From contig CP141135.1 in assembly GCA_035236585.1 (NCBI GenBank), positions 74,129,057 to 74,193,056 on the forward strand: 64,000 nucleotides of DNA, read 5' to 3'. This DNA is from Warburgia ugandensis. Its lineage: Eukaryota > Streptophyta > Magnoliopsida > Canellales > Canellaceae. The notes beneath the pieces are model-generated. The model did not search any database and was not told the origin of the DNA. It saw only the letters and a list, made by a program, of their open reading frames with translations. The position numbers and the translations under genes are program-made. This document shows positions 5,661-63,020 of the stretch, in pieces (the stretch's first letter is position 1; every line of letters begins with the position of its first letter).

Positions 5661-6069
5661 ATGGTTCGCTCTGACTTCCTCACATTTCTCATAACCACAT
5701 TTGTTCTGGCTCTCTGCTTCTCTCCAGATTGTATTTTTTTACTAGTTTTCTGTGTTATTGTAGCGTTCTGTTTTGATAGTGCGAGTTCTTCATCCTTCTT
5801 TGTAGGATATCAGAGAGGAAATGAGGATCAAGAAAGTAGCTCCTTCCACCCTACTTGAAGTGAGACTTTCCATTTGAACTTCTAAATTTGCTTGAGCTTT
5901 CAGAAAATTTTTCGTGCCATGGTGTTGGAATGTGCTTTGATTTTGTTGGGGCTTCCAGGAAATTTTGGAGAAAGAAAGATCGATGATCAAATTTTCCATG
6001 GATTACACTGCTCCACGTCCAAGTTAAAAGCCTGGTACTGGAGATCCACCTCCACATATTATCTCTTGA
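5661..6069 (+). pseudogene. Broken DY-peptide gene, twin of 53434
   Basis: Exon 1 (5661-5727) encodes an intact signal peptide starting MVRSDFLTFL and ending CFSP, but the donor GT after CCAG has become AT. Exon 2 (5806-5859) has a 2-bp loss after the G-Y start that throws the RK-E segment out of frame. Exon 3 (5959-6027) encodes ...KFSMDYTAPRPS and then TAA at 6025-6027. The ancestral reading (K-P-G-x-G-x-PPP, stop at 6067) continues beyond it in the same frame. The premature stop is shared with the twin, so it predates the duplication. Related to the intact gene at 52214. Confidence 0.85.
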
Positions 6070-6309
6070 AAAAGGATGAACAATGGAACGGGACTAGGAG
6101 GAAATGGCGAAGCCCATTCCAGCACTTCAATGGCGAAAAGAGGAGTCTAGTTTTTAGAATCTGTTGGCTATTATTAAACAATAGTTAGTAGAAATTATAT
6201 TTCTTTTGGAACTTCCTTTCTGACCATAGATAAATTTTCCTCCTGCGAGTTAGCCGAGCCAACTCAAATCTCAGTCTAAGTCCATAGCTTTTTCCCTGTT
6301 GATAGTCAA

Positions 6310-6975
6310 TACTCTCGTCATCATCATCAAGACCTTATCCCAATTAGGGCAATATGAATCTTATTTCTCCATTCCTCTCTATTGAGCAGCATGGCTTCAT
6401 TTAGTCCCAAAGTTTTTAAATCTTTCCTCACCACTTCTATCCACGTTCTTTTGAGCCTTCCCCTTACCCTTTTAAAACTTTCTACTTGCATTGCCTTACT
6501 CTTTCTAATCAGTGTTGTTTTCGTTCTCCTTTGAATACGTCCAAATCATCTAAGTCTAATCTCCTTCATCTTATTATCTATTGATGCTACCTCTAAATTT
6601 TCTCTAATATTCTCATTCCTAATTCTATCCTTTTTGTCTTACCACTCATCTATCTCAACATTTTCATTTCTGCTATGCTCATCTTATGAGCATGATGTTC
6701 CTTAACTACCCAACACTTAGATCCATAGAGGATGGCCAGCCGTATGGTCATCCTATAGAATTTTCCTTTTAGTTTGAGTGACACTCCCCAGTCATACAAA
6801 ACTCCAGATGCACATCTTCATTTGTTCCAACCTACTTGGATTCTTTGGGTAACCTCCCTCTCAATATCTCTACTCTCACGAATCATTGACCCTAAGTACT
6901 GAAAAGTGGTCTTTTACAGAAATTTTTTTATTATCAATCTTGAGTAGTATTCCACTCTTACTCCTCTCACTAAAA
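6310..6975 (-). mobile_element. 3' fragment of an RTE-like LINE
   Basis: Matches 54084-54765, which continues into a recognisable LINE reverse transcriptase. The 3' end (low coordinate) carries a short TCATCATCATCATCA repeat (TGA/ATG on the minus strand), the simple-repeat tail typical of RTE-clade elements. It is truncated at about 6975 against an LTR remnant. Confidence 0.75.
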
Positions 6976-7078
6976 TTACATTCCATATATTCTGGACGTA
7001 GGCTATACACATAGCCGAACCACGTAAGTCTTATTGTGTTTCTATGTGTGACTGTGTTATTGCAAGTTTGATCCTAAC
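6976..7078 (+). repeat. LTR remnant abutting the peptide gene on the minus strand
   Basis: The segment from ACGTAGGCTATACACATAGCC to ...GATCCTAACA matches the end of a longer LTR-like sequence at about 33660-33936. It ends CTAACA, as an LTR end would. It overlaps the last codons of the minus-strand peptide gene. Confidence 0.6.
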
Positions 7079-7445
7079 AACTGCTTTGCATCCTGAGGAA
7101 CATCATGGTCATGCACGTTAGATGCCAACAATGCCCTCACGATTTCCACATTCTCCTGAAAATCCAACAAAAGCAAAGCAAGACATGAAGATCAACTACG
7201 TAAAAAATTTGTAAAATCAAAACTCTGCAAAAGAAAAGAAAACAACCCGAGGCTGATTGGTGGGAGTCCTTCCTTGAGTATCATTTCTTTCCCTGAAAAG
7301 CCTAAGAAAATCAGAGAAAAGATACGTGTAGTAAAGCAACAAAAATGAATTAGAGAAAACAGAAAGCAGAAACTTGGCTACCTTGCAAGAAGTAGAGAGC
7401 CAAAACAGAGAAGGCCAGGACCTTGATGAAGTAAGAACGACACAT
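7057..7445 (-). pseudogene. DY-peptide gene, MCRSY subtype, copy A (frameshifted)
   Basis: Exon 1 (7445-7382) encodes MCRSYFIKVLAFSVLALYFL plus Q, a clean signal peptide. Exon 2 (7301-7247) is 55 nt instead of 56: one base is missing relative to the copy at 34140-34195, shifting the frame. Exon 3 (7155-7057) still reads ...SNVHDHDVPQDAKQLL but has His where the motif Tyr would be, and it reads into LTR sequence before a stop. A deletion between CTGCT repeats removed the segment matching about 33945-33980. Likely dead. Confidence 0.8.
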
Positions 7446-8239
7446 AGTTAGCCAATGATTCTAATAGCAAAGCAGCCAAAACACGAAAATCCAGGATTGA
7501 TATCTTTCATTGCGAGGAACTTATATAAACTTCAGGTCATGCCAGTTGAAGAGTTCGGTTTAAGAACTCCCGTTATTGTATGTTTGCACTCACTGTCAGT
7601 TAATTTTAATAAGAAAACAATGACACAAGCTCCTTCAAGAAAGCCTATAACAAAGAGGGATGAAAATGTCAAGCTCCTTCAGAGGAAGACGCATGCCAAG
7701 ATCTGCCTCGAACGACTTGGTATTCACTAGTGTTAGGAAAAAGAAGGATCTTTCAGTCAGAAAACCATACGGTTGTTATGTACATCCATGACATAAGGCG
7801 TGTTTCCTCCTACAATCATACAAATCAGGGCCCATACTTAGTATAATTCCACTACTCAAAGAAACTCTAGGGTGACCCCTGATCAATTCGAGCTGCAAAT
7901 GTAGACGAAAGATCCAAAACGTCGATTGCTGATCCTGAAGAAACTGCCACTAATCTGAATCTATCTAGAGAAAAACAACTATAGCACCTACAATGCTTCC
8001 TAAGAATGGAAATAGAGGGAGACCAATCAGCAAGCAAATGATTGGAAAATCTTTTAATATTTTGGGAAATTTATAGTTGTTAGGTTATACTGAGTTTCAA
8101 GCTGCGGCTCATCAATAACTCAGATTAACCGATAAATGATTATATATCACTGAAAGAATTGACTCTCTACTGTCCTCGAGGAAAAATATGAGTCTCACTA
8201 TTTCTTAGCTAATTAAGTTTCCATTATTTCTTCCCTATT

Positions 8240-8427
8240 GGTGCAACAGTAGAGTAGTCGTTGTGTGACCTGGAGGTCATGGGTTTGAGGCATGGAAACA
8301 GCCTCTTGCAAAAATACAAGGTGAGGCTGTGTACTATAGTCCCATGTGGTCTGCCCCTCCTCTGGACCCCACATATAGGGGAGCTTCGTGCACTAAGCTG
8401 CCCTTCTTTTCTTTTCTTTTTTTTTCT
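8240..8427 (+). mobile_element. Au-type SINE, copy 1
   Basis: tRNA-derived head (GGTGCAACAGTAG..., B-box-like GGGTTTGAGGC) followed by the body motifs GCCTCTTGCAAAA, TCCCATGTGGTC, GGACCCCACATA and GGGAGCTTCGTGCAC, and a T-rich tail. This is the Au SINE family known across angiosperms. It is part of the duplicated unit, so copies 1-3 are one insertion that was later copied. Confidence 0.88.
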
Positions 8428-8956: not shown

Positions 8957-9369
8957 ATGGATCGATCTCAATTTCTAGCGTTTCTTTTGATTTCAATGCT
9001 TCTTCTTAACGGCTGCTCTAAAGGTAACGGTGTTATTCCCTTTTCCTTTGAATATCTTATCTTATTTTTTCTTTATTTGCTCCATCAAATTAGGTGTTTC
9101 AAGTGCTTTGATTTGTAGGATTTGGAAGAAAGCAAGTTAGATCCACAAAAGAAGATCCTTTCAGACTGCTTGAAGTTTGTTTATCCCTCTCTATTTCTGA
9201 GAATATCATTCACTTAGCAGGGCCTTGTAGGTGATAGTCTTATCTAAGGTCTTTATTTTGTTTCATTGGGTTTTAGGAGAATGTGAAGGAAGAGATACCA
9301 ATGACCGAAGTTCGTTCTTCCAACTACGATAGTCCTAATCGCAATGGAAGCCCTGGAATTGGTAATTGA
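8957..9369 (+). CDS. DY-peptide precursor, MDRSQ subtype, copy A (71 aa, 3 exons)
   Basis: Exons 8957-9023, 9119-9174 and 9277-9369. All introns are GT-AG and phases are 1 then 0. Exon 1 encodes a signal peptide (MDRSQFLAFLLISM..., ending NGCSK). Exon 2 encodes G-F-G-R-K-Q...FRLLE. Exon 3 ends ...VRSSNYDSPNRNGSPGIGN. The predicted mature 15-mer ends SPGIGN, like CEP peptides (SPGxGH). In this copy the residue before Tyr is Asn, whereas the two paralogs have Asp, so sulfation may be weakened. It sits just downstream of a SINE and solo LTR. Role inferred: secreted signalling peptide. Structure confidence is high, family assignment moderate. Confidence 0.78.
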
Positions 9370-11148: not shown

Positions 11149-12290
11149 TTGATGGAGGTGTAGCAAAGCTAGTTGTTGGTATAGTTTTGACAAATACAAA
11201 AAAGCAAAGTTAGAAGCTAAATAATTTGAAGGCAAACAATTATCTTCTTCAAGCAATTGACCCGTCTATCTTGGAAACAATTCTCAGCAAAGAAACTTCC
11301 AAGCAAATTTGGATTCAATGAAGAAAAAAATATCAAGGTTCTTCAAGGGTGAAGTGTGCACAGCTTCAAGTTTTGAGGAGGGATTTTGAGACTCTACAGA
11401 TGAAAGATGGTGAGTCTATTACCAATTATTGTGCAAGGACCATGAGGATAACAAACAAAATGCTTGTGAGAACATAGAAGATGTTGCTATCGTAGAAAAG
11501 ATACCATATTCCTTAGCATCAAAGCATGATTATGTTGTTTGCTCAATTAAAGAATCTACAGATATCGATGAACTCTCACTTGATGAACTCCAGAGCCCTT
11601 TATTGGTCCATGAACAAAAGATGAACCAAAGTTTAACTACAGATAAGCGAGCTCTAAAAGCTTTTACCTTTATTCAATTCTCAAATTCTAGAGGAAGGGG
11701 TAGAGGTAGAGGTAAAGAAAGTGGAGGTCGAGGCAACAGAAATGGAAGTAGACATTGTCAAATTTTCAAAGCTAATGATGACCAATTTGAAGGCAAAGGC
11801 AAAGGCAAAGGATGAGATCAACAATTTGACAAATCTAAGGTAGAGTGCTTTAGGTGTCATAAATTTGGTCATTATCGTTCCGAATGTTATACTAAATTGC
11901 CTAACAAGAAAAAAAAATGGGAGAAATCGAATTTTGCAGAAAATAAGGAAGTAGAAACTTTATTGATGGCCTACCAAGCCAACAAGGAACCTGAATTAGA
12001 TGTTTGGTACGTAGATACAGGTTGCAACAATCACATGTGTGGTAGTAAATCTTCTTTTTCTTATTTAAATGAAGGCTTTCATTCTATTGTGAGTTTTAAT
12101 AATTGCTCTATTGTGAATGTAATGGGAAAAGGTAATATCAAAGTAAGAACCAATAATGGTTTTGTAGAAACAATTTCTAATGGTTTTTATGTTTTTGACT
12201 TGGAAAGTAATTTAGTAAGTGCTGGTCAATTGCAAGAAAAAGGTTATGTAATAACTATTCAGAAAGCTGCTTGTGAATACTTAAACTAGT
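11149..12290 (+). mobile_element. Copia 3 fragment A: gag, zinc knuckle and protease start
   Basis: Paralog of 44645-45790. Gag text such as ETLQMKDGESITNYCARTM, an RGRGRGK basic stretch and a CCHC knuckle (CFRCHKFGHYRSEC) are followed by the protease motif WYVDTGCNNHMCG. It is broken by small indels near 11310 and 11450 and by a stop after the basic region (11813-11815). Both copies end at the same point after ...CEYLN, so the element was already 3'-truncated before the block was duplicated. Confidence 0.85.
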
Positions 12291-13080
12291 TCCGCTTGTC
12301 ATGTAAAATAACTGACAGCAGTTGCCAAGTGCCCTTTGGCTGATACATCATAAGATATATGTGGCAAATGCAAGCCTTGGCATGGGACCCACCTGTCATA
12401 GAAATTCCTTAATTTAATATCAATTGCTCTAATATACATGATCACTGATGGTAGATGCTGAACATGGAACCTCCTATTTGTAAGCCACTGATAATATTCA
12501 ACTTATTGGCTCACTGAAGTTAAATATAAATTGTTACGAGTATTATAGTGTATTGATTTAGTTCTTGGCTCTTGATTGGGCTCACAAAATTAGAACCAGA
12601 TCAAATTTAATTTGATTTTGTTGGCAAAGAATTGTAATCGGACCATATTGGTTCCAACTAAAGAACCATAACCCAAGTTTTTGGTCCAGTTCCTAGGACT
12701 TGGTTGATAGCCCCAGCCATATGCCTGCCTTGATGACTTAGCTAATCAATTTACGGGTCATCAGTGATCCAAACAATTCACTAAACCGTCAGCTAGAAGC
12801 TATCCCATTTTGGATAATCCAAACCACTGATCGCCCAAGACTAGCTGGCACAAGTTAATCTAGTTGACTTCATTCTTATGACATCAGGCGACCTTTTTGT
12901 TCTCATATTCTGTAACATTGACTATAGTTGCAGAATTAGAAACTTTTTTTTTTTCTTATTAATCAATCTCATACCGTGCTCACATGGTCAATTGAACTGG
13001 CATGAAGACTATTGTAAGTATATAGTCCTTGAGAATCAATAATGGGCTTTCAGATTAGAGCATCCTTGGTTATGTTTCAG
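12291..13080. other. Duplicated non-coding block
   Basis: Matches 45795-46550 closely. At about 13070 the match jumps straight to exon 3 of the peptide gene, because about 620 bp holding exons 1 and 2 (present at 46556-47180) is gone. No other gene seen. Confidence 0.75.
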
Positions 13081-13851
13081 GAAAATTGGAAAGATTTAAG
13101 TGTGGTGGCAGCATTCACGAATGACTATCATCCCCCAAAACTGAACGATCAACCTGGCAATCATACCTTATTATCAAAATAAAGTAAATAAATCAAGGGC
13201 TGATATCTGGTGGGCCACCAATTGTTCATGTCTAATCTGGATGTATAATGATCAGATGATCCCAGAACTTGGATTGGAATTAATGAAGAGTGTTTCTTTT
13301 GAAGAACTTTGAAGTTCATGTCTCAATCAAGTGTATGATATCGAATTATCTCTAATGATCGGTTATTAATCTTGATCACTGAGTTGATGTGATCAAAGAT
13401 GTGTTAGTCATTGTCGTTGAAACAGAGGCCATTATTATATGGATAATTTTATAATTAAGAAGAGTTTTATCAAATATTACCAAGTCAACTTTTATATCTA
13501 CGGATGAAACAACAAAACATCAATTTCATGGATGGATGTGTTCACAATATACATGTCATGAATCAAAGGATGGGAAAGATTCCAGCCAATGCATGGAACA
13601 CACGTGGCAAATGATGAACTTAGACTAGCAATTTACTAGTTGAGAGGAGAAAAACTAAATGGGAATAGAAGAAGAAAATAGTAGTTCTAGTCAATGGAGT
13701 TGGTAGGATCATCGCCACCACTCTGCATTAATTCCATTCATTTTTCTGATTAATTTTTTTGTTTTCTTGCTTAGTCTAATTTTCTCCATTTGTAGGAGCT
13801 AAAAGAAAGGAAATGAGATTTGAGAAAGGACATTCTCTAAATCTACTTATG
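13081..13851 (+). pseudogene. DY-peptide locus copy A: orphan exon 3 and orphan second exon 2
   Basis: 13081-13182 is exon 3 only, encoding ...AAFTNDYHPPKLNDQPGNHT. The stop TGA of the twin (47274) is TTA here, extending the protein by L-L-S-K. 13796-13851 is a second 56-nt exon 2 (G-A-K-R-K-E-M-R-F-E-K...). Its partner exon 3, present at 48064 in the twin, is deleted between two GGTGG motifs. Without a signal-peptide exon the locus cannot encode a secreted precursor. Confidence 0.8.
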
Positions 13852-14059
13852 GTGGGGTAAATTGTAAGCTGAAACAGGACTGAGATCCTATAGACATGTA
13901 ATCATCTTCTAATTTCTTTGATTCTCCATGAAACCAAATATTAAAGAAAGCAAATTTTAGGTTCTACTTGAATGCTTTCAGAAGTAAGATGCCAAATTTT
14001 GGGTTTTGCAACGAACTGCAGGTAACATTTGATAGGCCAAGGAAAAGCATAGAATATCC

Positions 14060-15655: not shown

Positions 15656-15736
<81 letters not shown>

Positions 15737-16469: not shown

Positions 16470-16900
16470 ATGGACCGATCTTACTTTCTCACAGTTCTGA
16501 TATTTTCAGCTGTTCTAGCTCTTTGTTTCTCTCGAGGTAGTTCGTCTTCCTTACGGTTTTCATGCATCTCTTCGTGTTTTAGGCCTTTGATTTATTTTCA
16601 TTAGCTATCTTCCTTATTTTGTAGGAAATGGCAGAAAGGGAATGGGGTTTGAGGATGTAACACCCATTGGAGTTAAGGTGGGCAGTTTCCATTTTTTGTT
16701 TTCTGTGTCTGCTTGTTCTGTTTCTTAGATAACAGCATCTTTTTCATGCCATGGTGTTGAAATGTGCCTTTCTTTTCTTGGTGATGTAGGGGAATTCGGA
16801 GAAAGAAAGATTGATTACTGAATTCACCATGGATTACGAAGTCGGACCACCGAGAAATTCGAAGCCTGGTAATGGAGCTCCACCTCCACCTATATCTTGA
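16470..16900 (+). CDS. DY-peptide precursor with PSY1-like proline-rich tail (76 aa, 3 exons)
   Basis: Exons 16470-16536, 16625-16677 and 16790-16900; GT-AG introns. Signal peptide MDRSYFLTVLIFSAVLALCF, then G-N-G-R-K-G-M-G-F-E-D in a slightly short 53-nt exon 2. Exon 3 reads ...LITEFTMDYEVGPPRNSK and then a P-G-N-G-A-PPPP-I-S end. Asp-Tyr, then Pro, Asn, Lys and a PPxS C-terminus at about 20 residues recall PSY1 (starts DYGDPSAN, ends PGVPPS), a Tyr-sulfated growth peptide. It is single copy in the window, with no lesion seen. Closest relatives are 52214, 5661 and 53434. Confidence 0.82.
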
Positions 16901-18934: not shown

Positions 18935-18987
18935 CGTGTGTTGGAGCATTTGAGAACATACCATCTCAAATAAACAATAAAGAAATC

Positions 18988-19208
18988 ATGGCTCGACGGT
19001 ATTCTTTTGTCGTTCTTCTCCAATTTGCAATTATTTTAGCTCTCTTCTTCTTTCAAGGTAGCAGCACTTTGTGTTTTCTTTCTTTCTTCCCGTACAAGTT
19101 TATTTTCATCCTTTATTTTGTCACCGAGTCTTCTTCCACTCGTAAGGATTAGTCCTTGGGAAAAGGCAGATGGGTTTTGAGAAACCCGCAGGTTTCTATC
19201 TACTTCAG
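18988..19208 (+). pseudogene. DY-peptide gene, MARRY subtype, exons 1-2 only (copy 1)
   Basis: Exon 1 (18988-19057) encodes MARRYSFVVLLQFAIILALF..., a good signal peptide ending FFFQ. Exon 2 (19153-19208, 56 nt from the ATTAG acceptor; a second in-frame AG lies 6 bp upstream) encodes L-G-K-R-Q-M-G-F-E-K-P-A-G-F-Y-L-L-Q. The donor is GT. I searched the following kilobase and found no exon 3 with a DY motif. Either exon 3 was lost before this block multiplied, or it is too diverged to see. Confidence 0.6.
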
Positions 19209-19269
19209 GTTGGGTGTTAGTTCATCTTCGCTAGCACTCATGCAGCATTTTATAACTGTTAGATTACCA

Positions 19270-28532: not shown

Positions 28533-28547
28533 TTCTTTCTTTAGCTT

Positions 28548-37408: not shown

Positions 37409-37518
<110 letters not shown>

Positions 37519-45790: not shown

Positions 45791-45794
45791 TAGT

Positions 45795-46640
45795 TCTGCT
45801 TGTCATGTAAAATAATTGACAGCAGTTGCCAAATGCCATTTGGCTGATACATCATAAGATATATGTGGCAAATGCAAGCCTCGGCATGGGACCCACCTGT
45901 TATAGAAATTCCTTAATTTAATATCAATTGCTCTAATATACATGATCACTGATGGTAGGTGCTGAACATGGAACCTCTTATTTGTAAGCCACTGATAATA
46001 TTCAACTTATTGGCTCACTAAAGTTAAATGTAAATTGTTACGAGTATTATAGTCTATTGATTTAGTTCTTGACTCTTAATTGGGCTCACAAAATTAGAAC
46101 CAGATCAAATTTAATTTGATTTTGTTGGCAAAGAATTGGAATTGGACCGTATTGGTTCCAACTAAAAACCATAACCCAAGTTTTTGGTCGAGTTCCTAGG
46201 ACTTCGTTGATAGCCCCAGCCATATGCCTGCCTTGATGACTTAGCTAATCAATTTACGGGTCATCAGTGATCCAAACAATTCACTAAACCGTCAGCTAGA
46301 AGCTATCCCATTTTGGATAATCCAAACCACTGATCGCCAAAGACTAGCTGGCAACAAGTTAATCTAGTTGACTTCATTCTTATGACATCAGGCTACCTTT
46401 TTGTTCTCATATTCTGTAACATTGACTATAGTTGCAGAATTAGAAACTTTTTTTTTCTTATTCTGTAACATTGACTATAGTTGAACTGGCATGAAGACTA
46501 TTGTAAGTATATAGTCCTTGAGAATCAATAATGGGCTTTCAGATTAGAGCATCCTTGGCTACGTGCTAGCTCATTGGACTTTTCTTGAAATGAAAGACCA
46601 TTCTTCAACTCTTCTGTTTCTGGCATCAACTTTCTGATAA
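45795..46640. other. Duplicated non-coding block upstream of the 46705 gene
   Basis: Paralog of 12295-13070. No gene seen. Confidence 0.7.
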
Positions 46641-46704: not shown

Positions 46705-47276
46705 ATGAGTCGATCTTTGTTCGTAGCAGTTCTTCTGATTTCAGCTGCTTGCTCTCTACGATTCTCTCAAGGTAGTAGAGATTTGCTATTTTTTCTCCTT
46801 CAGTTTCTTCCATTTCCTTCATGTGTTTTGCACCAAGATATATCTCTATATATATGTAGGAGTCGGTAGAAAAGCCATGGGATTTGAGGAAGAAACTACC
46901 CGCAATCTATTAGAGGTTGGTTTCCCTTTGCGACTTATACTGTGGAAAGCTTGATCCAAGCCCACCTACATGACATTAGCAAGATCTAGGCTGCAGGGTC
47001 TATGGATCGAGCAGATAGTACGTCTGATCAACGGCATACAAATCGACAAGATAGAATGATTCACATTTTAATACTCAAGCTTCCATGCTAAAAGCTTCTT
47101 TTTTTGTTGATTGAAGATTTTGCATTTTCGGCACTAATTTTGACATAATTTTCAAGTCTTTGATTTGCTTGTGTTGATTTTTTCAGGAAAATTGGAAAGA
47201 TTTAAGTGTGGTGGCAGCATTCACGAATGACTATCGTCCCCCAAAACTCAACGATCAACCTGGCAATCATACCTGA
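46705..47276 (+). CDS. DY-peptide precursor, MSRSL subtype (70 aa, 3 exons)
   Basis: Exons 46705-46771, 46860-46915 and 47187-47276, GT-AG, canonical lengths. Signal peptide MSRSLFVAVLLISAACSLRF, exon 2 G-V-G-R-K-A-M-G-F-E-E-E-T-T-R-N-L-L-E, exon 3 ...VVAAFTNDYRPPKLNDQPGN ending H-T. Asn-Asp-Tyr-Arg-Pro-Pro recalls CEP starts (DFRPT) as well as sulfated DY peptides. A second exon 2/exon 3 pair lies downstream (47898-48141) and is compatible in phase with exon 1. Confidence 0.82.
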
Positions 47277-47897
47277 TTATCAAAATAAAGTAAACGAATC
47301 AAGGGCTGATATATGGTGGGCCACCAATTGTTCATGTCTAATCCGGATGTATAATGATCAGATGATGCCAGAACTTGGATTGGAATTAATGAAAAGTGTT
47401 TCTTTTGAAGAACTTTAAAGTTCATGTCTCAATCAAGCATATGAGATCGAATTATCTCTAATGATCGGTTATTAATCTTGATCACTGAGTTGATGTGATC
47501 AAAGGTGTGTTAGTCATTGTCGTTGAAACAGAGGCCATTATTATATGGATAATTATATAATTAAGAAGAGTTCTCTCAAATATTACCAAGTCAACTTTTA
47601 TATCTGCGGATGAAACAACAAAACATCAATTTCATGGATGGATGTGTTCACAATTTACATGTCATGAATCAAAGGATGGGAAAGATTCCAGCCAATGCAT
47701 GGAACACACGTGGCAAATGATGAACTTGACTAGCAATTTACTAGTTGAGAGTTGAAAAACTAAATGGTAATAGAAGAAGAAAATAGTAGTTCTAGTCAAT
47801 GGTGTTGGTAGGATCATCGCCACCACTCGGCATTAATTCCATTCATTTTTCCGATTTTTTTTTTTTTCTTGCTTAGTCTAATTTTCTCTATTTGTAG

Positions 47898-48141
47898 GAG
47901 ATAAAAGAAAGGAAATGAGATTTGAGAAAGGACATTCTCTAAATCTACTTATGGTGGAATCTTTTTTCTCATTTTTTGTTTTTAAGGAATTTGTGATGGT
48001 CAGCAATTTCTTCAGTAATTTGGGTTGATTTTTTTTATTTTTTTTTCTCCTATGGTTTGTCAGAAGAATTGGAGGGCAGGTATACTGACGGCAGATTATG
48101 ATACCCCAATTCACAACCCTAGTCCTGGTAACGGACATTAA
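47898..48141 (+). other. Second exon 2 / exon 3 cassette without its own signal-peptide exon
   Basis: 47898-47953 (56 nt, G-D-K-R-K-E-M-R-F-E-K-G-H-S-L-N-L-L-M, donor ATG|GTGG) and 48064-48141 (...AGILTADYDTPIHNPSPGNG, then H and stop). I see no exon 1 between 47277 and 47897. The phases fit exon 1 at 46705, so this could be an alternative 3' end giving a different mature peptide, DYDTPIHNPSPGNGH (15 residues, CEP-like SPGNGH end). The alternative is a relic of a fused or deleted neighbour gene. Confidence 0.65.
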
Positions 48142-48299
48142 GGCAATCAAAGGTGGAGTAAATTGTAAGCTGAAACAGTACCGAGATCCTATATACATGT
48201 AATCATCTTCTAATTTCTTTGATTCTCCTTGAAACCAAATATTAAAAAAGGCAAATTTTGGGTTCTACTTGAATGCTTTCAGAAGTAAGATGCCAAATT

Positions 48300-49000: not shown

Positions 49001-49228
49001 TATACAGCCTAATGATGCACATTCAAGACTGTTAATATTGGTCAGACTCCGACATTGGCACCAGTCCAGGAATTACAAACTAACCATGCCTCACAGTGGG
49101 CGAGTTTCAAATTAACAGCAAAGCAAACAGGTTTGAGAAAAGGTCAATTCTGATAAAAAAACAAACTTCCAAAGGTGATATGAAAAGAACTCGGATATCC
49201 AAGATCATGGTAGCTAAATCTTTGTTGT

Positions 49229-49661
49229 TCAGTTATTTTGTTCCGCTGAAGCCTTGGGATGACTTTTACGCCTACGTCCAGGAGGGTCACTACGAATTGG
49301 AGGGTCATAGTCCCCCATGGTAGATGATATCATCGACCTTTCAGATATCTCCTAAGGGCAAAACAAAAATGGAAAAAAACAAATCAAGATAATAGTTTAT
49401 AAAACTGTTGGAAGTTAGAAAATGCTACAATAGAGGTAGAGAAACAAGAGAACTAGCCTTAAGTTGATCTGTATGGACTTGTTTCTCATATTTTATTTCC
49501 TTTCTCCCAAATCCTGCAACGTATAGGAGAAGCCTGAGTGAAGTAAATGAATACTTGAAAAGGAAAATAACAGGAAACATAAGCGATGTTCTACCTTGAG
49601 TGAAATAGAGAGCCAAAACGGATGAAACCAAGAGAGCTATGATAAAGCAAGACCGAGCCAT
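49229..49661 (-). CDS. DY-peptide precursor, MARSC subtype, copy 3 (81 aa, 3 exons)
   Basis: Exons 49661-49595, 49513-49458 and 49351-49229. Signal peptide MARSCFIIALLVSSVLALYF, exon 2 G-F-G-R-K-E-I-K-Y-E-K-Q-V-H-T-D-Q-L-K, exon 3 ISERSMISSTMGDYDPPIRS then D-P-P-G-R-R-R-K-S-H-P-K, ending EQNN. It keeps the DY motif and all exons, so this is the best functional member of the subtype. Intron 1 is GT-AG; intron 2 has a GC donor (AAG|GC). The long C-terminal extension with RRRK could be trimmed after secretion. Confidence 0.82.
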
Positions 49662-49999
49662 GTAGGTAGTTAACAGAACCATAACCTGACTAAGCAATTC
49701 CAGTAATGGGAACCTACTTTCACCAAACAGGAATAGCAGCTAAATTAGAAATCCCAATATCTAGACCTTCCATTTTACTGAATTTATATATGAACTTGAG
49801 TCATGCAATTCAAACATCTTTCTTTGACTGCCTCTTTGTTCAATGATTCTTTCACTTTCAGCTAAAGGTCTGTGAAGAAGAAATGAGGAAAGTATGCAAA
49901 TGCCAAAATCAAAACTATGACTTCAAACTTCTCCTTCCAAAACTTCTCCTTCAAACTATGAGAAGTATGCTAGAGACCAAGAAAAGAAAAAGAAATGAA

Positions 50000-51350
50000 G
50001 AAATAGTAAAGAGAAAATATATTCCCACGCTTTTTTTATAACCAGCTATCAACCTGCACATTTTTCTTCAGTCCTTTTCTCTTCTAATAAAGGTGCCCTC
50101 TATTTATGCACCTAAGGTAATAAAGAAAAATGCCACGCAAGGGCTAAGTTCTGGGATTGACTCTAAAACCTCAAGTAGTTAAGCTTTATTTTTGGATGGT
50201 CTGACCCGTCCATCTTGTTTAGCCTCCCTTAAATTGGTTAGACACCAAAATTCATATCCATTGGATATTTTAGTACTGCATTTTAGTGTTTGAATCATAA
50301 CCATTAGATTTTAATTTTGAGGTGAAAAACTACTAGCTAGAAATATCCAATGAGCATGTTTTTCTGCAAAGAGCCTAAATCTCATGTGCCAAACAAGAGA
50401 TTGAGTTAGATCACCCAAGATTAAAGCCTAGCTAGGTGGTGTTTCAGAGTCAGTCTTGGAACTCACTTCTGATAGCATTTCTCTTTTCAAAATCCGTTAA
50501 TTGTCCATCTTTTGTGTTTTAGGGATGAGTTTGTAAAGTGTTATAGTAAGATAAGCCATGCAATCAAAATATCTGACTAATCTAAACCTGATGCAAAATG
50601 AAGGAGAAGTGAAAGAGGGTCAATATTTCAATTAATGCATTGTGGAAAAGAAGGCTATTGCGAATTGGCCATGGGAAATTTTGAACTGCATTGAGAGAGC
50701 AACATAGGAGACTCGAAGAAACTCAGGCAGATTTCAAATGTTAGTAGCTTAGATTTTGAATATTTATAAGGAAAATGTTCATGACCAAATAGCTTGACCA
50801 GTTGGTTAAGACCGCCAGAGGGTGCTAATGCCGTGCCCCGATCACTCGAGCGTTAACCAGAAAGTTGAAAAGTCAAAGTCGAACACCAGTTAGTTCTAAA
50901 ATGGAAGTGATCCTCGTGTTCTGACTATTGCTTTGCAGTTCACTTTGAGGGGTTGATCTTATTATAAAACCAGACGTGTGTTGGAGCATTTGAGAACATA
51001 CCTTCTTAAATAAACAATAAAGAAATCATGGCTCGACGGTATTCTTTTGTCGTTCTTCTCCAAGTTGCAATTATTTTAGCTCTCTTCTTCTTTCAAGGTA
51101 GCAGCACTTTGTGTTTTCTTTCTTTTTTCCCGTACAAGTTTATTTTCATCCCTTATTTTGTCACCGAGTCTTCTTCCACTCAATAGGATTAGTCCCTGGG
51201 AAAAGGCAGATGGGTTTTGAGAAACCCGCAGGTTTCTATCTACTTCAGATTGGGTGTTAGTTCATCTTCGCTAGCACTCATGCAGCATTTTATAACTGTT
51301 AGATTACCATTCAACCTAAAAGTTTAAGCTGGCATTTGATAGTCCAATAA
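50000..51350. repeat. Duplicated block with MARRY-type gene, copy 4
   Basis: Near-identical to 17930-19300 and to 31940-32860. Confidence 0.85.
51028..51248 (+). pseudogene. DY-peptide gene, MARRY subtype, copy 4, donor lost
   Basis: Exon 1 51028-51097 and exon 2 51193-51248 are as in copies 1 and 2, and the TATAAAACCAGA box is present at 50963. The donor after CTTCAG reads AT instead of GT. No exon 3 seen. Confidence 0.7.
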
Positions 51351-51700
51351 TATTTATATGTCACTCATGGTTCTAAAACTTGTGAAAAACTCATCTGAAT
51401 TACTTGATTTGGTAGCAATCAAGTCAACTATCTATGTAGCAAAGATGTTTTGTTTCTACTAAGATTTGAACCTAAGACTTCTCACACAACAATAAAGCAT
51501 CTTAATCAACTTACCTCCCGATTACATGTGTATTAAAGGTGAAATGTATAATCAAAATTTATAAAACGTCATAAAAAATTGCACTTGGGTAATTTTAACT
51601 CACCCATGAGTTGCTTTGACTTAACTCAACTCCCCCCACTTTCAAGTTGAATTGAGTTTTTGAGTTTTTAAAGTATGAAGACATCAGCTTAAATCCTTAG

Positions 51701-51755
51701 GCCTTGGGAGGAAGCAAATGGGTTTCAAGAAATCAAGTCTTTTTTTCTTTTCCTC
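51701..51755 (+). pseudogene. Orphan exon 2 of a DY-peptide gene
   Basis: After a CTTAG acceptor, the sequence reads (G)-L-G-R-K-Q-M-G-F-K-K-S-S-L, the exon 2 consensus, with no donor and no neighbouring exon 1 or 3. Surrounding sequence 51350-52140 is otherwise unrecognised. Confidence 0.6.
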
Positions 51756-52213: not shown

Positions 52214-52633
52214 ATGTATCACTCATACTTTGTCACATTCCTCATAATTTCAATTGTTTTAGCTCTCTGCTTCTCTCCAGGTAGTTGTTTTCCATTATAG
52301 TTTTGATCTTTGTGTTTTTATGCCATCCTGTTTTCCTGGTTTGAGTTCTTCTTCTAATTTGTAGGACATGGGAGAAAGGAAATAAGAGTTACGAAAGTAG
52401 CTTCTTCCAATAGTGCACCCCTTGAGGTGAGATGTCCCATTGGGTCTTCTTATTTGCTTGAGGATTTCTTAGCTTTTAGTATTCTTTTCATGACTGGTGC
52501 TCAAATGTTCTTTGATTTTGTTGGCTTTCAGGGGAGTTTGGAGATTGAAAGATCGATGATTGAATTTTCCATGGATTACCCTGGTCCACGTAGAAATCGT
52601 AAATCCTCTGTTGTTCCAGCTCCACCTTCTTGA
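52214..52633 (+). CDS. DY-peptide precursor with PSY-like tail, MYHSY subtype (76 aa, 3 exons)
   Basis: Exons 52214-52280, 52365-52426 (62 nt, two codons longer than usual) and 52532-52633, GT-AG. Signal peptide MYHSYFVTFLIISIVLALCF, exon 2 G-H-G-R-K-E-I-R-V-T-K-V-A-S-S-N-S-A-P-L-E, exon 3 ...RSMIEFSMDYPGPRRNRKSS then V-V-P-A-P-P-S. Starting at DY, the 19-residue end (DY..P..N.K....P.PPS) lines up with PSY1 and with the peptide from 16470. No lesion seen. It is the intact relative of the broken genes at 5661 and 53434. Confidence 0.85.
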
Positions 52634-52929: not shown

Positions 52930-54765
52930 ATCAACAGGCAATCTCACAGAACTCCTAACAATGTTATGACTCGTTGAAGTTCAGAAAATATTTATGAACA
53001 ATTTACTGGCAGACATTAATCAGCTGTATGAAATCGATTAGACAAGCCCAGCGCTTAATCAGGTGCATCTATAGCTAGACTAAGATGATCAGGACGTTTC
53101 ATCCAGAAGATCGATATGCATCACGCCTATCAGTAGCTCGATTTGCTCTTCTTACATAATCCTACTTAAGCAGGGTCTAGGAAGTTACAGACACATTCGA
53201 CTTTCAAGGAAGTGGAATTGTTGGAACAGGAGAAAAGAGAAGAAAGAAGGACTAAAAGTAAAACGATTGTCAGTCCAACCAACATGATGTGGAAAGGAAT
53301 GTCACGATCTTGACCATTATCTAAGCTTGACCATTACCTAACAGATTCAGGATCATGTACAAACCATACCATTTCTTTGCTATACGAGAACTTGACGCTC
53401 GATTCTGCAAACAACCCCATTCGATTTGAAATAATGGGTCGCTCTGACTTCCTCGCATTTCTCATAATCTCATTTGTTCTGGCTCTCTGCTTCTCTCCAG
53501 ATTGTATTTTTTTATTAGTTTTCTTTGTTATTGTAGCGTTCTGTTTTGATAGTGCGAGTTCGTCATCCTACTTTGTAGGATAAGAGAGAGGAAATGAGGA
53601 TCAAGAAAGTAGCTCCTTCCACCCTACTTGAGGTGAGACTTTCCACTTGAACTTCTAAATTTGCTTGAGCGTTCAGTAAATTTTTCATGCCATGGTGTTG
53701 GAAAGTGCTTTGATTTTGTTGGGGCTTCCAGGAAATTTTGGAGAAAGAAAAACCGATGATCAAATTTTCCATGGATTACACTGATCCACGTCCAAGTTAA
53801 AAGCCTGATACTGGAGATCCACCTCCACATATTATCTCTTGAAAAAGGATGAACAATGGAACGGGACTAGGAGGAAATGGCGAAGCCCATTCCAGCACTT
53901 CAATGGCGAAAAGAGGAGTCTAGTTCTTAGAATCTATTAGTTCTTAAAACAATAGTTAGTAGAAATTATGTATCTTTTGGAACTTCCTTTCTGATCATAG
54001 ATAAATTTTCCTCCTACGAGTGAGCCAAGCCAACTCAAATCTCAATCTAAGTCCATAGCTTTTTATCTGTTGATGGTCAATACTCTCATCATCATCATCA
54101 AGACCTTATCCCAATTGGGGGTCGGTGACATGAATCTTATTCCTTCATTCCTCTCTATTAAGCCCCATGGCTTCATTTAGTCCCAAAGTTTTTAACTCTT
54201 TCCTTACCACTTCTATCCATGTTCTTTTGGGCCTTCCCCTTGCCCTTTTAGAATCTTCTACTTGCATTGCCTCGCTATTTCTAACTAGTGCCATTTTCGG
54301 TCTCCTTTGAATATATCCAAACTATCTAAGTCTAATCTCCCTCATCTCGTTACCTATTGATACTACCTCTAAATTTCCTCTAATATTTTTATTCCTAATT
54401 CTATCCATTCTTGTCTTACCACTCATTCATCTCAACATCCACATTTCTACTACGCTCATCCTATGAGTATGATGTTCCATAACTACCCAACACTCTGATC
54501 CATAGAGCATGGTCGGCCTTATGGCCATCCTATAGAATTTTCCTTTTAGTTTGAGCGGCACTCGCCAGTCATACAAAACTTCAGATGCACATCTCCATTT
54601 ATTCCAACCTGCTTGAATTCTTTGGGTAATCTCCCTCTCAATCTCTCCACTCTCATGAGTCATTGATCCGAAGTACCGAAAAGTGGTCTTTTACAGGAAA
54701 TTTTTTATTATCAATCTTGACTGATGTTCCACTCCTACTCCTCTCCTTGCTAAAATTGCATTCCA
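52930..54765. repeat. Segmental duplicate of 231-6975
   Basis: See that entry; this copy lacks the copia insertion and continues further into the LINE. Confidence 0.85.
53434..53800 (+). pseudogene. Broken DY-peptide gene, twin of 5661
   Basis: Exon 1 53434-53500 (MGRSDFLAFLIISFVLALCF) with the same GT to AT donor change. Exon 2 53579-53632 opens with an in-frame TAA after the junction Gly. Exon 3 starts at 53732 and ends at the shared early TAA (53798-53800) after KFSMDYTDPRPS. Confidence 0.85.
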
Positions 54766-55800
54766 TATATTAAGTCTTAGTTCGTTTAATTTTAAATCCT
54801 TTAGATTCTAATGATTCTCTTCATAACTTTAGCTTTGTGTTTACACCCTCCTTTGTCTCATCAATTAAGACTATATTATCTGCGAATAGCATGCACTAGG
54901 GAATCTCCTCGTGCAGATGTTTTATTAACTCATCCATAACCAATGTGAAAAGGGATAGGCTCAATGCCGATCCTTGGTGTAATTCTACAGTTATAGGAAA
55001 ATCACTGGTCTCGCCACTAGCGGTCTTAACATTTGTTATCGCTCCCTCGTACATATCTTTAATTATGTCTATATATCCTGGTGAAACCCCTTTCTCACCT
55101 AACCCCTTCCATATTAACTCTCTAGGGACTCTATCATAAGCTTTCTCTAAGTCGATAAAGACCATGTGAAGGTCTTTCCTCCTCTCCCTATATTTCTCTA
55201 TCAATTGTTGTAATAAGAAAATGGCTTTTATGGTAGACCTCTCAAGAATAAAACCAAATTGATTCTCCAATACATTAGTATCATACCATAACCTCTTCTC
55301 AATTACTCTTTCAAAAAGTTTCTTGGTGTGGCTTATAAGTTTCATCCCTCAATAATTGGTGTAGCTCTGTATGTCTCTTTTATTCTTATAAATTGGTACA
55401 ATGGAGCTTTTCCTCTACTCATTAGGCATTTTCTTTGATTTTATAATCTTGTTAAACAACTTGGTCAACCAAACTACCCAAATATCTCCCATATGCTTCC
55501 AAACCTCTATTGGTATACCATTGGGCCCCATAGCCTTTCCTGATTTTATCTTTTTCAAGGCCTCTTTCACTTCAAGTATCTTACATTTATATCTATAAAA
55601 TCCAATGTTATTTAGATTTATAGTATGTTCAATTCCTAAATTCTCAGAGCTATTGTTATTTAACAATTTTTGAAATTACATCTTCCACCTTTGTTTGATC
55701 TCATTTTCTTTGACTAATACCCTTTGATCATCACTTAAAGCACCTAACATTATCTAAGTCCTTACCCTTCTGTTCTCTTACTTTTGCAAGTTTAAACACA
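54084..55800 (-). mobile_element. RTE-like LINE, 5'-truncated and degenerate
   Basis: Minus-strand segments encode reverse transcriptase: KIKSGKAMGPNGIPIEVWKH (about 55560-55500), then 55345-54896 with VFIDLEKAYDRVPRELIWKG and LHQGSALSLSLFTLVMDEL. The C-terminal 54663-54427 has KFYRMAIRPTMLYGSECW. The pieces are separated by frameshifts and stops; the FADD catalytic box would fall in the damaged stretch after 54896. The 3' end has a TCATCATCATCATCA tail. Low-copy plant LINEs of the RTE clade have this RT signature. Confidence 0.85.
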
Positions 55801-57632: not shown

Positions 57633-58031
57633 ATGGGTCGAACTTACTTTCTCGTAATCATCCTTGTTCTAGCTTTTTTGGCTCTCTTCTTTCAAGGTAC
57701 CCATTCTATGTTTCCCTTTTATCTTTCCAGTTTATATTTGTTCCTCATTTTCATCTCACTAACGCTTCTTTCCATTGTTCGATTAGGACTTGCAAGGAAG
57801 GAAATGAGATTGCATAAACCAACTCGTTTCAATCTTCCTAAGGTGGATTTATTTCCTTTCGATTTATATTTTACTTCTCTAAATAGTATTTTGTGATTTT
57901 CAACAGTTTTTTCAGGCCAAGTCTTCAGATTTTCATTTGCTTTTATTGGGTTTCAGGCAATGATGGCGATGGATTACGACAAGCCAAATCACAGCAAAAA
58001 GACCAACTCTAGGAGACATAATGATCCGTGA
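57633..58031 (+). CDS. DY-peptide precursor with RHNDP end (64 aa, 3 exons)
   Basis: Exons 57633-57696, 57787-57842 and 57957-58031, GT-AG. Signal peptide MGRTYFLVIILVLAFLALFF, exon 2 G-L-A-R-K-E-M-R-L-H-K-P-T-R-F-N-L-P-K, exon 3 A-M-M-A-M followed by DYDKPNHSKKTNSRRHNDP. The end resembles PSY family members (…N.(R)RHDP) and, more loosely, RGF peptides (DY...P...RHN). Unlesioned. First gene of the 3' array. Confidence 0.83.
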
Positions 58032-58039
58032 ATGAATTT

Positions 58040-60119: not shown

Positions 60120-60563
60120 AATGAAATGATGGAGTTTAATTTCTCATAATTATCCTTGCTAGCTCTTTCCTTCTTGAATCCTTATTTTCGAGTAGGACTT
60201 TGATAGAAAGGAAATGAGATTCGTGAAGCCAGCTCGTTTCAGTCTCTAGCTGAGGTGAGGTTATTCCTATTTGACTTCCATTCTACTTCTCATTAAGCAT
60301 TTTGTGGTTTGGGGAAGGATCAGGCTATGACTATGATGAAGGTGAGCTTTGATGCAGAGGTAAAAATTGTTGTCATATAACCTTGAGGCTATGGGTTCAA
60401 GGCGTGGAAAGTCTCTTGCAAAAATGCCAGGTAAGGCTACTTACTAGAGACCCTTATGATCAGCTCCTTCCCCAAACCCTGCATAGGCGGGAGCTTTGTG
60501 CAACAGGGCTGTCCTTTTTGGGCTATGACAATGATGGATTCCGACATATGGGATAAATTGTAA
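60120..60563 (+). pseudogene. Decayed DY-peptide gene split by a SINE
   Basis: 60125-60175 aligns to exon 1 of the gene at 57633 but with indels. Exon 2 (60196-60254) has TGA and TAG in place of A-R. Exon 3 begins at 60324 (GCTATGACTATGATG) and is interrupted by a SINE; it resumes after the target duplication and reads A-M-T-M-M-D-S-D-I-W-D-K-L, so Tyr is replaced by Ser. Confidence 0.78.
60339..60520 (+). mobile_element. Au-type SINE, copy 4, inserted in exon 3
   Basis: About 182 bp with B-box-like GGGTTCAAGGC, GTCTCTTGCAAAAATGCCAG, GGGAGCTTTGTGCAAC and a TTTTT end. Flanked by a 16-bp target duplication, GGCTATGAC(T/A)ATGATG, at 60323-60338 and 60521-60536. An independent insertion from copies 1-3. 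Confidence 0.9.
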
Positions 60564-60569
60564 CGAAAA

Positions 60570-61560
60570 TACAATGTTGATTCCATTCGATATGTGTGAA
60601 TATGCTCCCTTAATCGTGGCTGTATTTCAGCCAAAATCACAATTAGAAAGTCATGGTAGGAAGTGTTAAAAATCTTATTAATTGAACGGCAATGGGTGTC
60701 CAATTGGATAAGATTATTCAACCATTGTTAGTCATTGACAGATTCTTTTTTCTTTTTCTTTTCCTTGGGCCAAAGTCAAAGACAGATTCCTTTTAAAACA
60801 ATATTAATTAGAATCGTTCAATGGAGAGGACTTTTAGTGTGTAGCCATGAAAGGACGATTAGCAAGATTTATATAATCCGGTTTATTAAATTATGCTGAA
60901 TTATTCTTTACTAAAAAACAAAACCGCGTTTCCTTACATTCCATTAAGAACTATATTTACCATAAACAATAGCTGTCACAAGAAAGTTCAACTCTCTTCT
61001 AGCCCATTGTTGATTGTCTGATCAAATCAAAGGGCTATGACTTGAGTGGGATAGTATCCAAGTTTAGATGATTCAATCCATTCATCTGATTGCTCAAGCT
61101 TTTAATATCATCAACTAAAAGATCACGAATAATTGGATGATTCTAGCATTTAAAGAAGTCGCGATTTTGGTTGTTGGATGTAGACCATTGTTTATGCAAA
61201 ACCCTAGATCAAAGTAAAGATTTTTCGTGCATGATTCATCCAATGCATATGCCCCTTGAACTACTGCACAAACGAAGCATAAGCAATCAGATAAACGGAT
61301 CGGAGCATCCTACGTTTTAGCCTTAATATGCAAACATGGGGCCAAAGGTGTGAATATAGACAGTAAGCCATCTGCTCCTACTGATGAATCTAACATTGTG
61401 ATCCAAATACATGCATAAATAGAAGATATTGTGGGTATTCTGATATAAGCTTTCCTTTGCTACTCCCTCTTGTTTTTCAGTTCTACTTTTGCGGCATTGG
61501 TCATCTGGGGGGCGTATTCATCATATCAAGAGTACCCATTTCCAGAAGATAACATACAAA
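60570..61560. other. Intergenic; no gene seen
   Basis: Short match to the tandem flanks near 60600; the rest shows no coding or transposon features. Confidence 0.55.
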
Positions 61561-61562
61561 TC

Positions 61563-61972
61563 ATGGGTCGGCCTTACTTTGTCTTGGTTCTAGTTGTTCT
61601 ACATGTTTTGGCTCTCAGCTTGTGACAAGGTAACACTTGCTATTATCCTACTTTCATTCCTACATTTATAGTTCCTTCTCTTGTGTTTCACTAAGTCTTT
61701 CTTTCACTAATTTATTAGGACTTGGCCAAAAAGAACCGAGGTTCCAGAAGCCAGTTCGTTTCAGTCTACTTGAGGTGGAGCTTTTCTCGTTTGATTTCCA
61801 TTCTAGCTATACCAGGCATTTTACAAGTCTCATCCTTTCTCATGCCCTGGTATTAGACAAGTTAATTTTCTTTATTGGGTTTCAGGCCACGATGATGATG
61901 GATTACGATGTGCCAAATCATGGTGAAAACACCAAATGCAAGGAATTAGGATGTATAAGGATTAATAAATGA
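61563..61972 (+). pseudogene. DY-peptide gene with TGA at the end of the signal peptide
   Basis: Exons 61563-61629, 61719-61774 and 61886-61972, with correct GT-AG sites. Exon 1 (MGRPYFVLVLVVLHVLALSL) has TGA at 61623-61625, one codon before the exon end, where siblings have Phe. Exons 2 and 3 are otherwise open: G-L-G-Q-K-E-P-R-F-Q-K..LLE and ATMMMDYDVPNHGENTKCKE, ending RINK. DYDVPNH pairs it with the gene at 57633 (DYDKPNH). One base change from intact, so it is either a recent pseudogene or a sequencing or allelic variant. Confidence 0.78.
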
Positions 61973-62597
61973 ATGTATCGGGTAATAAATTATGCGAATC
62001 CGTTATCAGTTGTGGCGAGCCCATGTATATAGGTTGATGGATGATTTGGTGAATTCCCTATCGTAAAAGTCGTATCCAACGATCAGATGTGTATATAGGT
62101 CAATATCCGTCCACTTTGTCAAATCTTTCTCTTCTCTGTGTTCTTTGACCACTTACTCCTGCAGCTTCCGTAATATACATTACATGAGGTTGCTTATAGG
62201 AAACTTCATGTATTATAAATCTATGCGAAGTAGACAAATGTGTGTCGAATGATAGTTGCTCATCAGACTTTTCAATCTTGGATTTATAAATATTCCCATT
62301 GGTTCAAATTTCAAACTAGGCCAATACTAATTCTCGCCGATGAGCATCTTTTGATTCTTCCGGAATGATGGCAGATTTTCAAAACTATAAACTCCTGCTG
62401 AAGAAAAGATGGTGCAGATATGACAACAAAGGGACAATATCACATGCTGCTGGATAATGAATTCAATATTATTACTTGAACAATTCAAACTGAGTGACAG
62501 ACTTTTCAGCCTCAAAAGGCTCTTAAATGGAAGAGATTGTGACTCTCATAATTTAAGCTTATTTCGCTACTTTGGTTTTGTAGTGGCATTGTTATTC

Positions 62598-62610
62598 TCA
62601 TAAAACCAGA
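62598..62610 (+). promoter_or_regulatory. TATA-CCAGA element before 62648
   Basis: TCATAAAACCAGA about 45 bp before the ATG, the shared promoter or leader motif of the family. Confidence 0.55.
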
Positions 62611-62647
62611 GGCATTCCTGATCGTCCCAGAAAAGACGAAGGAAATC

Positions 62648-63020
62648 ATGGGTCGATCTTTCTTTCCGATAGTTCTAGTTGTCCTAGTTGTTTTATCTCT
62701 CTGCCTGTTTCAAGGTAACACTTTCTGTTTCCTTCTTTCCTTTTCATGTTTGTATTTCACCTTGTTTTCGTGACTAATTTTATCTTTCCATTAATCAATT
62801 AGCACTCGCAAGAAGGGAACCGAGAACTGAGAAACCAGCTCCGTTCAATCTACTTGAGGTGAAATTCTACCCATTTTCCTTTCCAGTTCTTGCAGAGAAC
62901 TTTGTAAACTGAGGCACTTTTTGCGATGGTTTTTCATCTTCTTTTCGTTTTGTTTGGCTTCAGACAATGACAACGATGGATTACTCAGGGCCAGATCGCA
63001 ACGGCAACGTTGGCCATTAG
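62648..63020 (+). CDS. DY-peptide precursor with SGP...GH mature end (59 aa, 3 exons)
   Basis: Exons 62648-62714, 62803-62858 and 62964-63020, GT-AG. Signal peptide MGRSFFPIVLVVLVVLSLCL, exon 2 A-L-A-R-R-E-P-R-T-E-K-P-A-P-F-N-L-L-E, exon 3 TMTTMDYSGPDRNGNVGH. This is the shortest member. The last 13 residues combine the DY motif with SGP...GxGH-like features known from PIP and CEP peptides. No lesion. A run of AATAAA-like signals follows within 60 bp. Confidence 0.84.

Follow-up and report, generated by a model that had tools for sequence, protein, structure and literature searches.

A tandem array of three-exon genes on contig C10

Here, we analyzed a 64,000-nucleotide window of the 1.12-Gb Warburgia ugandensis genome (contig C10, positions 74129057–74193056), which carries a tandem array of small three-exon genes putatively encoding precursors of secreted peptides with an Asp-Tyr (DY) motif. 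Predicted genes were read directly, and the words DYxxP and GxGRK were catalogued across all frames, before copies were detected with an nhmmer nucleotide profile, built first from 13 copies and rebuilt from 16 (cut-off E ≤ 0.01), in 264 kb of DNA comprising the window and about 200 kb of flank. The rebuilt profile identified 24 copies in the window (1–64000), 16 near-full and 8 partial, together with five further copies to its left, at about −1.4, −3.4, −5.6, −8.6, and −11.9 kb, and zero copies at this cut-off in the remaining 188 kb of flank. These results confirmed the tandem array, whose 29 copies (genes and remnants) lie on both strands and within larger duplicated blocks. The initial annotation had counted about 22 copies, at least eleven of them complete, an estimate borne out by the 24 found in the window, 11 of which are open; the cluster also extends further leftward than described. 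The window copies are as follows.

Open copies
8957–9369 (+): 8950, group A; exons 8957–9023, 9119–9174, 9277–9369; tail NYDSPNRNGSPGIGN, Asp lost
16470–16900 (+): 16455, group C; exons 16470–16536, 16625–16677 (53 nt), 16790–16900; tail DYEVGPPRNSKPGNGAPPPPIS
23464–23876 (+): 23457, group A; exons 23464–23530, 23626–23681, 23784–23876; tail DYKSPNRNGSPGIGN
31207–31631 (−): 31650, group B; exons 31631–31565, 31493–31438, 31326–31207; intron-2 GC donor; tail GYSYPIHN..., Asp lost
33930–34339 (−): 34350, group E; exons 34339–34276, 34195–34140, 34046–33930; tail DCDVPQNAKQ..., Tyr lost
36509–36923 (+): 36502, group A; exons 36509–36575, 36673–36728, 36831–36923; tail DYNDPDHNGSPGIGN
46705–47276 (+): 46695, group F; exons 46705–46771, 46860–46915, 47187–47276; tail DYRPPKLNDQPGNHT
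49229–49661 (−): 49665, group B; exons 49661–49595, 49513–49458, 49351–49229; intron-2 GC donor; tail DYDPPIRSDPPGRRRKSHPKASAEQNN
52214–52633 (+): 52207, group C; exons 52214–52280, 52365–52426 (62 nt), 52532–52633; tail DYPGPRRNRKSSVVPAPPS
57633–58031 (+): 57626, group D; exons 57633–57696, 57787–57842, 57957–58031; tail DYDKPNHSKKTNSRRHNDP
62648–63020 (+): 62642, group D; exons 62648–62714, 62803–62858, 62964–63020; tail DYSGPDRNGNVGH

Broken near-full copies
5655–6089 (+): 5661; exon-1 donor GT changed to AT, exon 2 of 54 nt, in-frame stops
7025–7450 (−): 7445; exon 2 shorter by 1 nt, frame lost
38198–38698 (−): 38700 (also 38698), group B; exon 1 unrecognizable; tail DYDEPRRPQPLRRSQ...
53428–53862 (+): 53434, sister of 5661; donor GT changed to AT, exon 2 of 54 nt, in-frame stops
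61557–61980 (+): 61563; stop in exon 1

Partial copies
13065–13194 (+): exon 3 alone (DYHPPKLNDQPGNHTLLSK)
13735–13857 (+): exon 2 region
18982–19257 (+): exons 1–2
32538–32813 (+): exons 1–2
47853–48145 (+): 47853, exons 2–3 (DYDTPIHNPSPGNGH)
51022–51297 (+): exons 1–2
51673–51735 (+): exon 2 region
60177–60316 (+): exon 2 region

Eleven of the 16 near-full window copies possess an ATG, splice-site dinucleotides, and a single open frame to the stop. Both introns are GT–AG in nine of these, while intron 2 is GC–AG in the group-B copies 31650 and 49665; GC in place of GT at the second donor is common to all four group-B copies (31198–31632, 38196–38698, and 49220–49662, all on the minus strand, and −1353, in which the second acceptor AG is lost). 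Exon 1 (64 or 67 nt) ends in phase 1 in 11/11 open copies, as the initial annotation had proposed, and exon 3, which starts in phase 0, reaches its stop 13–27 codons beyond the DY site; the proposed 56-nt exon 2 holds for nine, the remaining two measuring 53 and 62 nt. The proposed motifs likewise apply to only part of the open copies. D-Y is present in eight of the eleven and replaced by N-Y (8950), G-Y (31650), or D-C (34350) elsewhere; D-Y-x-x-P is present in seven, copy 16455 carrying DYEVGP, and G-x-G-R-K-E/Q is exact in five (8950, 23457, 36502, 49665, and 52207), with the variants GNGRKG, GVGRKA, GFGRQE, GFSRKE, GLARKE, and ALARRE in the others. Among the left copies, three of five are open, namely the leftmost, −3390 (tail NYNSPNRNGSPGIGN), and −5558 (tail DYDVPQDAKQ...), while −8557 is without a gene model.

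The reading frames were then compared in 15 near-full copies, with 38700 excluded. The correct frame was open in 11 of the 15, with 8 stops in total, while each of the shifted frames was open in none and contained 54 and 74 stops, which argues that the open frames are not due to chance. Exon 1 was hydrophobic in 15/15 copies tested, with a best 12-residue Kyte–Doolittle mean of 2.56–3.57, and it is on hydrophobicity alone that the predicted leader (signal peptide) was judged. A TATA-like box lies upstream of 11 of 22 ATG-bearing copies compared with 22% of random stretches, a weak signal, several of these boxes being shared by descent. Taken together, the gene models, the profile copies, and the frame test support the secreted-peptide genes, three-exon plan, and local expansion put forward in the initial annotation.

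The founder-type gene and its relatives

The leftmost copy of the array, C10:74117130–74117596 (+), lies outside the window and is a founder-type gene encoding ...RGRMMMVSTMDYADPGANINPRTGALLSP..., with a precursor distributed over exons of 67, 56, and 147 nt as MGRSCFLMVLMISAVLALCFSQG / LGSRGISFEKLEGFNLYK / ERSLRGRMMMVSTMDYADPGANINPRTGALLSPSTPGQPSHPSPSYYP. Used as a DNA query, it identified a relative on contig C4, 84% identical across 575 of the 581 bases, plus two C4 places and one on C13, and a group-D query revealed additional places on C4 at about 56.588 and 56.599 Mb. The partly read region C4:56588185–56662815 holds a second set of members, of which C4-1 (within C4:56662226–56662815, minus strand), C4-2, and C4-3 are open and three are broken as judged by eye. 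Between the founder (LM, C10) and C4-1, point estimates are 0.24 for dS and 0.10 for dN, and indels occur in both introns but at no place across 270 coding bases, a pattern that fits purifying selection. The founder-type C10 copy is the best candidate for the constrained hormone gene of the family. On the third contig, an exon-1-like remnant of founder type was located at C13:36595481–36595593.

A protein profile led by C4-1 (A2), searched against a database of 5.8 billion sequences, identified homologs in at least three plants, Tetracentron sinense (E 1.7e-15), Asimina triloba (E 1.8e-12), and Crotalaria pallida (E 2.9e-5), so that the hosts comprise a magnoliid, a basal eudicot, and a legume. 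A profile of nine window precursors (A1) returned 506 candidates, none at E ≤ 1, and the founder precursor as a lone query returned one candidate, none at E ≤ 10. Besides the leader and an R-x-M segment, the founders and the three homologs share M-D-Y-x-[DE]-P-[GE]-[AP]-N-[TI]-N-P-x-x-G-x-x-L-x-P; their five-sequence alignment contains 18 invariant columns, including R48, M50, M-D-Y, P60, N63, N65–P66, G69, L72, and P74, and the commonest peptide form in the family is DYxDPGANTNPxxGYxLSPPP. On the basis of these sequences, the array is the site at which a wider, unnamed angiosperm family expanded, because the family also includes the C4 counterpart and the homologs in Tetracentron, Asimina, and Crotalaria.

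Pfam returned nothing above its cut-off for nine precursors, with two chance matches below it, and NCBIfam returned zero matches for the one precursor submitted. The Tetracentron homolog bears a precomputed Pfam label, PF15240, and in the Protein Data Bank the matches to the founder did not rise above chance (best E 0.32). A text search of the literature for five strings taken from the founder motif found none of them, a search that did not extend to supplements, subscription papers, or preprints; in a separate string search, the matches listed contained only NTNPR, which was taken to stand for gene names such as NtNPR1. These results point to an angiosperm peptide family for which the libraries searched contain no curated model and the literature searched no motif string. 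The initial annotation knew of no described family with this exon plan and local expansion, which agrees with the literature searched; the family nevertheless reaches beyond the array and is annotated in three plants, where its members are named merely as hypothetical proteins, which weakens the further claim that these genes would all escape standard gene callers.

Relation to known plant peptide families

For the motif tests, 20 sequences were used, five of them the founders and homologs and 15 others. Residue scoring covered 25 known peptides in 48 comparisons, with RGF4, GLV9 (other spacing), and the PSKs excluded and with GLV8, the CIFs, and TWS1 trimmed to 13 residues. PSY peptides are defined by DYXXXX[AP]NXXHXP (PMC7913133, PMC11641228), their precursors are short, with a leader and a C-terminal DY peptide (PMC7913133), and their genes contain introns in tobacco and wheat (PMC12153210, PMC11641228). 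The genes described here resemble PSY genes in their short precursor, leader, C-terminal peptide beginning with DY, and introns. With regard to the PSY length of 60–200 aa and the motif in the second half, precursors of the open window copies measure 59–81 aa (59 in copy 62642) and those of the founders 89 aa, with the motif placed accordingly. All five founders and homologs start the peptide domain with Asp-Tyr, as do 8/11 open window copies, and all five carry P5, [AP]7, and N8 of the PSY motif; [AP]7 and N8 occur together in 0/15 of the other sequences, N8 alone in 7/15. In contrast, H11 and P13 were found in 0/20 sequences, including 0/5 founders and homologs, which conserve NxNPxxGxxLxP in their place. 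A further difference is the tandem array itself, since PMC11641228 reports zero tandem duplicates among 29 wheat PSY genes. Within the PSY set, C4-1 is nearest to PSY2, with 5/11 residues beyond DY (p 0.03, uncorrected for the 48 comparisons). By sequence, the founders are thus PSY-like, carrying the initial half of the PSY motif, and outside PSY by its published definition; the PSY-like tails of the initial annotation are retained for founder-type members only, lacking H11/P13 and with weak peptide scores.

CEP peptides are described as ending in SPGXGH/N (PMC10515272) or SPG(I/V)GH (PMC4526919). An SPGxG[HN] ending was found in 3/20 sequences, namely the open group-A copies 23457 and 36502 and the partial copy 47853 (without exon 1), each with 15 residues from DY to the SPGxGN/SPGxGH end, and the group-A NY copies 8950 and −3390 share an ending of this type. 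These peptides differ from CEPs in starting with DY and in the absence of the CEP core before SPG. The ending occurs in 0/5 founders and homologs and therefore probably arose within the array, where the CEP-like ends look like convergence. The initial annotation had also likened the tails to CEP, a likeness that extends to the ending in these three sequences and not to a demonstrated kinship.

According to PMC4526919, IDA and PIP genes are intronless, whereas the 11 open copies possess two introns, which sets them apart from IDA/IDL and PIP/PIPL; the SGPS core, as defined there, was seen in none of 20 tails by eye. Likeness to RGF/GLV/CLEL peptides consists of the DY start, P5 in most, and the scores of C4-2 and C4-3, which are nearest to GLV8, while the motif DYxxPxxxPPxHN occurred in 0/20 sequences. 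Membership in RGF, IDA, and PIP was rejected on these motif, intron, and SGPS features. The PROSCOOP/SCOOP genes of Brassicaceae (PMC6382344) form tandem clusters amid transposon remains, have two or three exons and divergent peptide motifs, and are in part unannotated, and the likeness to the present array is one of evolutionary pattern. The part of that source consulted here mentions no DY motif for SCOOP, and SCOOP homologs were not found outside Brassicaceae, in contrast to the magnoliid, basal eudicot, and legume homologs of the C10 peptide family.

Divergence, history, and interpretation of the array

Selection was examined in nine paralog pairs, the group-A pairs being not independent, by comparing mature codons and pre-pro exons with non-coding DNA; group E was excluded because its ends differ by breakpoint. 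Mature codons diverged faster in 31650/49665 (16/81 differing vs 26/776 in non-coding DNA, p 2e-7), C4-2/C4-3 (11/54 vs 27/416, p 0.0018), and 8950/36502 (6/48 vs 31/727, p 0.022), all p values being uncorrected. Four group-A copies considered jointly were variable at 7/45 mature positions and 12/197 intron positions (p 0.058). Pre-pro exons were slower than non-coding DNA in 4/9 pairs (p < 0.05). Diversification of the mature peptide is thus well supported by sequence comparison in one C10 pair (31650/49665) and likely in one C4 pair (C4-2/C4-3).

A tree was built from 21 of the 29 C10 copies and six C4 copies, excluding 38698 and seven other partial copies; its root was placed arbitrarily, and three of the terminal branches are long. 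The C10 and C4 copies are interleaved, the tree requiring four or more label changes along its starred branches; several lineages therefore predate the C4/C10 duplication, and so the expansion appears to have begun before it, with later block duplication on C10 multiplying groups A, B, C, and E. A whole-genome origin of the C4/C10 duplication is no more than conjecture.

We interpret the locus as an array of three-exon genes that evolves by birth and death and encodes precursors of small secreted peptides, working through the mechanism proposed here, with a probability of about 0.64. Asp-Tyr is the TPST context in PSK, PSY, and RGF precursors, and SBT3.8 cuts before Asp-Tyr, according to PMC7913133; by analogy, we infer the sulfation, processing, receptor, and expression of the array peptides. 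Exon 1 would supply a signal peptide cleaved near Gly-23 and exon 2, around GxGRK, a propeptide. In the exon-3 product, TPST would sulfate the Tyr of Asp-Tyr, as in PSK, PSY, and RGF, and an aspartate-dependent subtilase resembling SBT3.8 would cleave before Asp, releasing a peptide of 13–27 residues in open window copies and, if untrimmed, up to 34 in the founders. This peptide would signal via a leucine-rich repeat (LRR) receptor kinase in the manner of PSY; for the founders, the first receptor candidate, on account of their DYxDPxAN, is an LRR kinase of the PSYR type.

Under this mechanism, the founders (DYxDP[GE][AP]NxNPxxG...) would represent the constrained hormone, while the array copies would mostly keep Asp-Tyr-x-x-Pro, the remainder drifting or, in some pairs, being driven apart, so that the array would furnish ligands or antagonists of ligands in a changing assortment; its products may act on the founder receptor or have shifted to others. 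The complete proposal, in which a conserved, undescribed Asp-Tyr hormone seeded an array that kept leader, propeptide, and mostly Asp-Tyr-x-x-Pro while the rest of the mature part came under diversifying selection, sometimes arriving at a CEP-like SPGxGN/H end, is offered tentatively and with considerable doubt. If it holds, the products would serve as ligands or decoys in some conflict, for instance one with pathogens or one inside the plant, comparable to SCOOPs or hypervariable toxins. The array also provides a case in a plant where divergence of a presumed ligand can be gauged against the introns of the genes that encode it. The founder peptide, if active, would be a new candidate sulfated hormone and the array a library of natural variants for its receptor. 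The new side is the unnamed family behind the array, with a mature part that appears fast-evolving in places; the kind of system is known.

Several results weigh against the birth-and-death array with its mechanism. Faster mature codons were obtained in only 3/9 pairs at p < 0.05 and 2/9 after correction, the excess being absent from the other six (five group-A pairs and a group-C pair); one of the four pairs with slow pre-pro exons consists of two broken copies; and a third-position excess in pre-pro exons is absent between groups (0.467, 0.424, and 0.470 by codon position), for which reason constraint on the array copies is weak. The best single peptide scores go to GLV8 rather than PSY (C4-3, p 0.012; C4-2, p 0.028), copy 38698 reaches p 0.047 with RGF6 and 0.042 with TWS1, and these scores against known families are weak, none surviving correction for 48 comparisons. 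Five of 16 near-full copies are dead and three of 11 open ones are without Asp or Tyr, and much of the array may therefore be decaying. Those same losses, together with the eight partial copies, the missing third-position excess, the six pairs without faster mature codons, and the Copia and LINE pieces amid the copies, including a Copia gag block recurring at 93%, would be expected if the founder alone works and the array consists of tandem and block duplicates amid repeats, neutrally drifting and supplying no ligand repertoire. This account we consider unlikely, since neutral drift does not make mature codons diverge at roughly six times the rate of the non-coding DNA next to them (31650/49665), nor does it agree with a right frame open in 11/15 copies against 0/15 for the shifted ones.

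The fast mature codons could instead reflect gene conversion or alignment error rather than selection, as group-B and C4-2/C4-3 mature segments align only with gaps and the segment of 31650 has 18 bases in common with the group-B copy −1353. A donor was found in 264 kb for none of the mature segments of 36502, 49665, and 38698, whose longest match elsewhere is 11–12 bases, and we consider this explanation improbable. Least probable of all is that the genes are PSY genes proper and the array an ordinary PSY expansion: the short precursors, which pair a leader with a DY peptide at the C terminus, the introns found likewise in tobacco and wheat PSY genes, DY, P5, [AP]7, and N8 in 5/5 founders and homologs, and the proximity of C4-1 to PSY2 would suit it, but DYXXXX[AP]NXXHXP as a whole is present in 0/20 sequences and N-x-N-P-x-x-G-x-x-L-x-P is conserved instead.

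The right boundary of the array is marked by an intact 1146-codon RNA polymerase Rpb2-type gene (Pfam) at C10:74194326–74197763 (−), 1.3 kb beyond the window, which is probably, by eye, a Pol III subunit. Its second-best place in the genome is 39% identical, with no C4 match among the matches listed that would indicate synteny of the C10 and C4 arrays. The left neighbor is Dof-like by eye. Transposon pieces lie amid the copies at 577–4686 (−), 25545–29347 (−), 11414–12286 (+), 44637–45647 (+), and 54899–55348 (−), comprising Copia-type pieces and a reverse transcriptase of non-long-terminal-repeat type, assigned by Pfam for eight window open reading frames and by eye for the rest. The block 11149–13069, with Copia gag sequence, is repeated at 44644–46558 (93%). 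In the group-E minus copies (about 7020–7085 and 33885–33935), the end of exon 3 runs into a common sequence starting TTAGGATCAAACTT, which is absent from the −5558 copy and resembles a mobile-element end. Long simple repeats at 37411–37516 and 15661–15732 (translated GAGAGA and CTCTCT) give rise to long inverted-repeat pairs.

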